DNA from: Candidatus Altimarinota bacterium
GTDB taxonomy: Bacteria > Patescibacteriota > Gracilibacteria > BD1-5 > UBA6164
NCBI GenBank assembly: GCA_028691535.1
Contig: JAQUZB010000001.1
Span: 1 to 64,000, forward strand
DNA length: 64,000 nt
Direction: 5' to 3'
Shown: in pieces, positions 227-1,849 of the stretch
Numbering within the stretch: position 1 is the stretch's first letter
How the letters are laid out: the number at the start of each line of letters is the position of its first letter
Notes under the pieces: model-generated
What the model was told of the DNA's origin: nothing
The model's input: the letters and a program-made list of their open reading frames with translations, nothing else
Database searches by the model: none
Program-made: the position numbers and the translations under genes

Positions 227-390
227 AAGTAAAAAATATTTTTCCAAAAAGATGGCTTGGAACCCATTTAAAATATTTATTTACAAAAGTAAAAATTCTG
301 GGTGGAACCGTCCTAAATTAAATTTTAAAAAAGGACCCTAGAGATATATTTTCGAAAAGAAAAAAATATCTTTAAGGTCTTTTTTCTTTT
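227..390 (+). promoter_or_regulatory. T-box riboswitch leader of glyS
   Basis: The leader contains the T-box core GGGTGGAACCG at 300-310. It folds as a canonical antiterminator: helix A1 pairs 297-302 with 337-342; a 7-nt bulge TGGAACC (303-309) follows; helix A2 pairs GTCC (310-313) with GGAC (333-336). In T-boxes the UGGN of the bulge pairs with the tRNA NCCA end. N is A here, which fits the U discriminator usual for bacterial tRNA-Gly. Upstream, 229-241 pairs with 271-284 as a short stem I, capped by TTCC/GGAA (242-245/259-262) with GGC at 254-256 in its loop. The GGACC segment is shared with the downstream terminator, so the two folds exclude each other. Expected logic: uncharged tRNA-Gly stabilises the antiterminator and glyS is transcribed. 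The specifier assignment is inference. Confidence 0.88.
333..390 (+). terminator. Intrinsic terminator of the glyS T-box leader
   Basis: GACC (334-337) pairs with GGTC (376-379). The stem continues through 339-347 with 366-374 around a T/A-rich apical part and is followed by a T-rich tract at 380-390. Its left arm re-uses the 3' strand of the antiterminator, so termination and antitermination are alternatives. Confidence 0.85.
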
Positions 391-427: not shown

Positions 428-1849
428 ATGACTAATGTTACAATGAAAGATATAGTAAATCTATCTCAAGCTAGAGGTTTTGTCTATGCTTGAAGTGAGA
501 TTTACGGATGACTTGCTAATTCTTGGGATTATGGTCCTTATGGTTCACTTTTGAAAGAAAATATAAAAAACTTATGGATCAAAGAATTTGTACAAAAAAA
601 AGATGAGATGATGTTACTTGATAGTTCTATCTTACTTAATCCAAAAGTTTGGGTTGCAAGCTGACATGTATGAGGTTTTAGTGATCCTTTAATTGATGAT
701 AAAAATACAAAAGAAAGATTTAGAGCTGATAAATTACTTGAAGCTTTGATTGAAGAAATGTGCGAAAATGCTAGTTCATTACAAGCTAAATATTCTGTAA
801 ATAACTTAATTCCAGAATCATGGGATTTAGAAAAACAAACTGAAGTTATGAGAGGTGAAAATGTTAAAAATCCAAATACTTGAGAAGTTGGTGATTGGAC
901 AGAAGCAAAAAAATTCAATCTTATGTTTCAAACTTCACAATGAGTAACTCAAGATTCTAGTTCAGTTATTTATTTGAGACCAGAAACTGCTCAAGGTATA
1001 TTTGTAGATTTTGCAAATGTAGCTAGAACAAGTAGAAAAAAAATTCCTTTCGGAGTTGCTCAAGTTGGTAAAGCTTTTAGAAATGAAATTACTCCAGGTA
1101 ATTTTATATTTAGAACTAGAGAATTTGAACAAATGGAAATAGAATATTTCTGTGAACCAGGAACAGATTTAGAATTACATGCAAAATGGAAACAAGATTG
1201 TATGAATTTCTTACAAAATACTCTTTCTCTAAATCCTGAAAATCTTAGATTTAGAGATCATGATGCTGATGAACTTAGTTTTTACAGTAATGCAACAACA
1301 GATATAGAATACCGCTTTCCATTTGGTTGGTGAGAATTATGGGGAATTGCAGATAGAACTGATTATGATTTAAAAGCACATATGTCAGAATCAAAAGCTG
1401 ATATGAGTTATTTTGATCCAGTAAATAACAAAAAATATATACCTTATGTAATTGAACCAAGTGTTGGTTTAAATAGATTATTCCTAACTTGTTTAGCTGA
1501 TAGTTATACAGTTGATTGAGAAGGTGAAGAAGCTAGAAATTATTTAAAACTTGATCCAAAAGTTGCTCCAATAAAGGTATGAGTTCTACCAGTTGTTAAA
1601 AAAATAGGTGATTTAGCAAAACAAGTTTATGCACAATTAGCTGAAGATTTTGTTTGTGAATATGATGAAGTTTGAACAATTTGAAAAAGATATGCTAGGA
1701 TGGATGAAATTGGTACACCATTTTGTGTAACTATTGATTCTACTAATTTCGAAGCTGGAAAAGTTACAGTTAGATTTAGAGATAGTATGGAACAAGAACT
1801 TGTTGAAATTTCAGAGTTAAATGAATTTATAAGAAAAAGAATTAAATAA
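428..1849 (+). CDS. glyS: Glycyl-tRNA synthetase (alpha2 type)
   Basis: 473 aa, class II alpha2-type GlyRS, which charges tRNA-Gly. The N-terminus (RGFVYAGSEIYGGLANSWD) matches the family motif after the start. [10 protein letters not shown] lies near residue 183, and the motif-3-like [10 protein letters not shown] near residue 342. A C-terminal anticodon-binding domain follows. Several glycines are TGA: codon 22 reads TGA inside the conserved GSEIYG segment. In this code GlyRS must supply glycine both for GGN codons and for the reassigned TGA, presumably through an extra tRNA-Gly(UCA). The gene stands alone between the T-box leader and a strong terminator at 1851. The ATG at 428 is the only start preceding the conserved N-terminus; no Shine-Dalgarno is visible. 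Confidence 0.96.

Follow-up and report, generated by a model that had tools for sequence, protein, structure and literature searches.

A putative minimal T-box leader with an apical glycine codon precedes glyS in a UGA-recoded lineage of Gracilibacteria

The window, i.e. the whole stretch of 64,000 nucleotides analysed here, comes from a Candidatus Altimarinota bacterium with a genome of 1.26 Mb, beginning in its contig 17, and carries close to its start the glyS gene for glycyl-tRNA synthetase (GlyRS; 428-1849, forward strand, as are all features of the window described below), which encodes 473 amino acids under translation table 25 and contains 11 in-frame TGA codons. Directly upstream of glyS lies a candidate T-box leader of 170 nt (221-390), in which an antiterminator competes with a terminator, and its predicted fold beats 199 of 200 shuffles (z -3.0). 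The leader is preceded by a predicted sigma-70-like promoter (193-220), composed of the -35 element TTGAAA (193-198), a 16-nt spacer and the -10 element TATAAT (215-220), and from the position of this promoter transcription is predicted to start near 226-228, at the base of the first hairpin. The same promoter layout is common to most relatives, with a median distance of 93 nt between the -10 element and the T-box bulge.

The 3' half of the leader contains two alternative structures, an antiterminator at 296-343 and an intrinsic terminator hairpin at about 329-384 with a T-rich tail reaching to 390. In the antiterminator, helix A1 is built by the strands TTCTGGG (296-302) and CCTAGAG (337-343) with seven pairs, two of them G-U, followed by the bulge UGGAACC (303-309; TGGAACC in DNA) and by A2 with its loop (310-336), where GTCCT (310-314) pairs with AGGAC (332-336) in five pairs. 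The first four bases of the bulge, UGGA, can pair with the terminal UCCA of tRNA-Gly, which includes U73, hence the variable base of the bulge suits the cognate base 73, as in known T-boxes. Antiterminator and terminator are mutually exclusive, because the terminator, whose core pairs GACC (334-337) with GGTC (376-379), is built with the 3' strands of both A2 and A1 (overlap 329-343), the CCTAGAG strand being common to A1 and the terminator. Such use of antiterminator strands by a terminator, or else by a sequestrator, is a defining trait of T-boxes, and the terminator is the more stable fold with -21.1 versus -10.6 kcal/mol; a hairpin terminator overlapping A1 is present in nearly all leaders of relatives. 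The original prediction, a 7-nt TGGAACC bulge between A1 and A2 with a competing terminator, thus matches the sequence in its architecture, except that the helices of 6 and 4 bp proposed for A1 and A2 are to be read as seven and five pairs.

Overlooked in that prediction was a short Stem I hairpin at 229-284, 56 nt in length and with eight nucleotides in its apical loop. In the minimum-free-energy fold it is composed of a lower helix (229-242 with 270-284), an internal loop (243-249) and an upper helix (250-255, AGATGG, with 264-269, CCATTT), which presents the apical loop CTTGGAAC (256-263) with the putative specifier codon GGA (259-261) flanked by U258 and A262. The end of this loop lies within a second copy of TGGAACC (258-264). 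A Stem I consisting of TTCCAA/TTGGAA with a GGC codon was considered and dropped; both in the fold and by comparison with the relatives, CTTGGAAC is enclosed by AGATGG/CCATTT, which makes GGA the codon. The assignment of the loop draws on a word count and on the glycine codons of the relatives. When 5-letter words were counted without bias in the Stem I regions of leaders representing 31 genera, TGGAA and TGGNA ranked at the top, with TGGNA occurring in 29 of the 31 versus 8.2 in shuffles. When hairpins around the specifier motif were scored in 64 leaders, 32 had a flank-shuffle fraction below 0.05, about three being expected. A GGN triplet lies within the apical loop in 64 of 66 leaders, the exceptions being those of the genomes G043 and G050, which are treated below.

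Between Stem I and the antiterminator only the purine string AAAAGTAAAAA (285-295) is found, occupying the usual place of Stem III; no ordinary Stem III hairpin was found there in the window leader, and these 11 nt leave no room for a Stem II. In the window's genus an alternative hairpin TTTAC-AAAA-GTAAA is possible, which may be a Stem III in disguise, and it would take the 3' strand TTTAC of Stem I. Over the set of 66 leaders, 27 have a strict Stem III of the form RRRxG-hairpin-AA, about 10 have a hairpin with a flank other than RRRxG, and about 29, the window included, have an unbroken AAAAGURAAA-like purine string without a hairpin.

Comparison of related glyS leaders, which had been proposed as a check of the original prediction, showed that the bulge, A1 and A2 are all conserved and covarying. 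A GlyRS match was obtained in 53 of 60 relatives, and nearly all of the leaders fetched from them have GG(G)-TGGAACC-G with complementary arms. Over 36 aligned leaders the bulge is near invariant, pairing is retained in 97.7% of A1 and 99.3% of A2 cells, and changes on both sides of a pair are seen at 4 of 6 pairs in A1 and 3 of 4 in A2 (7 of 10 overall). The covariation score is 0.515, compared with 0.288 for column shuffles and at most 0.283 for slid controls; relatedness inflates the covariation counts and is retained in the slid controls. A covariance model, R1, was built from 36 training rows taken only from leaders of these genomes, the window site among them. In the source genome it reports the window site with E 7e-12, a value for a site that is itself a training row and with which the other 35 rows agree independently, and no other T-box, the next match having E 1.5. 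Across the order R1 matches 69 of 77 genomes (48 of the 50 of good quality), with a single match per genome in all but one of them, always at glyS or at an operon leading to glyS, and the genomes lacking a match are mostly incomplete. R1 also detects glyS T-boxes of Firmicutes (Lysinibacillus, Bacillus) that are known to the Rfam model RF00230, such as L271 with 86 bits and L283 over the cut-off.

Several relatives have the T-box before other genes (L138, L139, L140, L141, L143, L240, L244, L260), which judged by their protein starts are RidA-like, deaminase-like, Nudix-like, aldo-keto reductase-like or small membrane proteins, and in those checked glyS follows further downstream. A weaker R1 match (E 3e-5) lies at about 390-460 of L127 in genome G066, before a gene for a 202-aa membrane-like protein, not a synthetase.

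Glycine tRNAs found in the source genome are those with the anticodons UCC and UCA, both ending in UCCA (U73). Since tRNA-Thr(UGU) and tRNA-Cys also have U73, specificity must come from the codon. The specifier GGA pairs with the UCC anticodon, and UCA is barred by A36 against G. Across the order the specifier is mostly GGA, otherwise GGC, GGU or GGG, and UGA in none of the leaders; those of G036 and G055 were assigned as GGC by eye. Where a tRNA-Gly(GCC) was detected, which is the case in 12 genomes of the order, 9 of 11 leaders have the GGC specifier, versus 1 of 53 from the other genomes (Fisher 2e-8; 1e-4 when collapsed to genera), and the single GGC leader where no such tRNA was found belongs to a genome that is 77% complete.

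Taken together, the leader is best explained as a tRNA-Gly-specific T-box controlling glyS by transcription attenuation, to which we assign a probability of about 0.9. Directly supported are the parts themselves with their conservation and covariation, the identity of the codon, and the agreement with U73 and with the glycine tRNAs present; from these we infer that the leader binds tRNA, distinguishes charged from uncharged tRNA and regulates glyS accordingly. In the nascent leader the anticodon of tRNA-Gly(UCC) would pair with GGA in the apical loop of the short Stem I. If this tRNA is uncharged, its 3' UCCA would pair with UGGA of the bulge, so that A1/A2 would be held, the terminator would not form and glyS would be transcribed. 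With glycine attached, the end would be barred from the bulge and the more stable terminator would form. What speaks against a T-box is that K-turn, elbow-binding double T-loop and Stem II are lacking, that the window has no ordinary Stem III and that RF00230 is silent; the GGU specifiers of several relatives would furthermore require U34 to read U.

The original prediction had the T-box sense the charging of tRNA-Gly, whose demand includes the reassigned stop codon, and suggested that this may couple glycine supply directly to the reading of UGA. In a rival reading the T-box would sense the UGA decoder tRNA-Gly(UCA) and so achieve this coupling directly. That tRNA also ends in UCCA, its 3' end thus suiting the bulge, and it bears most of the demand, TGA making up 1010 (about 78%) of 1290 glycine codons in 48 long open reading frames of the window, followed by GGT 174, GGA 86, GGG 17 and GGC 3; these counts are approximate, the 48 longest frames having been picked mechanically. 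Against it stands a specifier position that is GGN throughout, with which the UCA anticodon would mispair (A36-G), and the case of G081, a genome from another family of the class, whose glyS leader (L134) is of the same short kind with the loop TTATGGAAC, in which tRNA-Gly(UCA) was not found and whose GlyRS frame is open in the standard code, without in-frame UGA. By this case the switch is independent of recoding, a single genome being thin evidence for its age. Direct sensing of tRNA-Gly(UCA) is therefore regarded as very improbable, and of the GlyRS T-box proposed for a UGA=Gly bacterium the T-box-type switch is retained as the likely reading, while its direct coupling to UGA is given up. 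Judged by codon-anticodon pairing, the switch listens to the UCC isoacceptor, which serves about a fifth of the glycine demand. Coupling to UGA demand would be only indirect, because one GlyRS charges both tRNAs and a shortage caused by UGA would still show; the sensor would watch the minor glycine tRNA with UGA using another, and the two tRNAs would hence compete for one regulated enzyme.

A decayed T-box, in which the terminator and A1/A2 persist as a constitutive attenuator inactive towards tRNA, would accord with the loss of Stem II and of the elements that bind the elbow and, in some members of the order, of Stem III as well. Decay would nevertheless have erased features that are kept across deep divergence in very AT-rich genomes, namely bulge, helices and specifier loop, as well as the link by which GGC goes with tRNA-Gly(GCC), and this explanation is accordingly given little credence. 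Least probable by far is an accidental likeness, a plain terminator hairpin beside a chance TGGAACC; the leader is AT-rich and hairpins form readily in it, but an element shared by 69 of 77 genomes, with compensatory changes and in every case at glyS or at an operon that leads to it, is not of this kind, chance being refuted by the covariation.

With the tRNA-Gly-specific T-box as the preferred reading, its anatomy can be set against known classes. The canonical transcriptional T-boxes (RF00230; glyS leaders of Firmicutes, glyQS) share with it A1, the 7-nt UGGNACC bulge, A2 and the competing terminator, together with a codon for the synthetase's own amino acid and, for glycine, UGGA matching U73. 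They differ in having a long Stem I whose tip binds the elbow and whose specifier lies in a side loop (PMC7583486), whereas the window has a short Stem I with an apical specifier; by inspection none of the long Stem I features (K-turn, side specifier loop, double T-loop elbow-binding tip) was seen in it. A specifier in the apical loop of an ultrashort Stem I is known from actinobacterial ileS T-boxes (Sherwood 2015, as reviewed in PMC7583486), apical specifiers being a feature of short Stems I, and this trait is found in the window. The ileS T-boxes are however translational and need a Stem II, whereas the window has a terminator and neither translational control nor a Stem II with S-turn. The thrS T-boxes from other families of the class are alike in phylum, discriminator and TGGAACC bulge and differ by a larger, more canonical Stem I with a likely ACC/ACU (Thr) specifier, being partly seen by RF00230 (L125, 44 bits). 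According to the review, Stem I is obligate, a long Stem I is generally needed by transcriptional T-boxes, a short Stem I without Stem II barely binds tRNA in the T-boxes tested, and Stem III with RRRxG and AA flanks is indispensable, an antiterminator without it binding poorly (PMC7583486). In terms of its predicted structure the window leader is a true T-box of new anatomy, transcriptional, with an ultrashort Stem I and lacking Stem II; an ordinary Stem III is also absent from the window's clade. Such natural minimal T-boxes offer a test of which parts are necessary, the long Stem I, Stem II and Stem III.

A further reduction is suggested by G043 (L025) and G050 (L048/L160), which represent two genera and in which the predicted promoter abuts the discriminator of the glyS T-box, squeezing out Stem I. 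Their near-consensus promoters (TTGACT-16-TATACT and TTGACA-17-TATACT, respectively) follow the preceding gene's stop codon after 3-5 nt, and their distance to the bulge is 45 and 38 nt, compared with a median of 93 nt in the other leaders. Downstream of the promoter only Stem III, A1, A2 and the terminator are present, and neither leader shows a GGN loop like those of the other genomes. The bulge of G043 is UGGGACC, and both genomes contain several tRNAs with U73 (Gly, Thr, Cys). A TGGAAA hairpin 86 nt upstream in G050 was rejected as Stem I, being inside the end of the preceding gene. No promoter-abutting T-box was found among 380 genomes of the phylum, so that the form without Stem I rests on two genomes. 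Discriminator-only T-boxes are thus possible in these two genomes, whose promoters are predicted, read-through from upstream being the alternative. Tentatively, and with the odds somewhat against it, the T-box may have been pared down stepwise in this lineage and still function, from a short Stem I with apical codon through the loss of the Stem III helix in the window's clade, where the purine string is kept, to the loss of Stem I in G043/G050, leaving a discriminator that would sense the uncharged UCCA end without reading the anticodon. If true, such a switch would contradict the view of Stem I as obligatory.

RF00230, whose use on the leader had been recommended, does not report the window site even at E 10, nor is there any match at its gathering cut-off, a miss that apparently reflects the derivation of the model from T-boxes with a long Stem I. 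Relatives of the element are weakly recognised (L134 with E 0.002, L027 with E 0.009), and other weak Rfam matches in the window and the leader (snoRNA, miRNA, trpB, Bacteroid-trp) were set aside as AT-rich noise. As to annotation, the whole group is overlooked by the Rfam model. The original prediction took T-boxes as known mainly from Firmicutes, Actinobacteria and a few other phyla and not from this lineage. They are not absent from the phylum, since RF00230 matches 127 of 380 sampled genomes of the phylum at E <= 0.001, 13 of them over the cut-off, and relatives in the class have thrS T-boxes. Weaker R1 matches within the class and outside the order are for the most part located in front of thrS; these thrS T-boxes (L124-L126, L128-L132, L135-L137) have a Stem I of larger size, and their specifier is likely ACC or ACU. 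The T-boxes catalogued in a survey of 2008 came exclusively from Firmicutes, Actinobacteria, Chloroflexi, Deinococcus-Thermus and two Proteobacteria (PMC2494555). Full-text searches, with most subscription journals outside their reach, returned no paper on T-boxes together with Gracilibacteria and no mention of T-boxes in the candidate-phyla papers that they listed, and T-boxes of the phylum, although present, seem not to have been published; canonical ones may already be included in Rfam or TBDB. Regulation of a synthetase by a T-box is apparently undescribed for the candidate phyla radiation, and for a recoded lineage.

The GlyRS of the order is 52-58% identical to Firmicutes enzymes, and some of the glyS leaders of the latter have T-boxes (L261-L340). 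A joint transfer of GlyRS and T-box between the order and Firmicutes is possible from these sequences; the scan of named genomes for GlyRS returned only Firmicutes and is biased, probably because the glycines of the search pattern are often TGA in recoded genomes. As for recoding in general, a reassignment of CGA/CGG to Trp has been reported in Absconditabacteria (PMC8629427). No tRNA for CGA was found in the source genome, and one tRNA, which ARAGORN types as Arg and whose anticodon is CCG, carries G73 (G000:C17:160753-160826; L144, 101-177, minus strand) and may be the Trp(CCG) tRNA behind such a reassignment.
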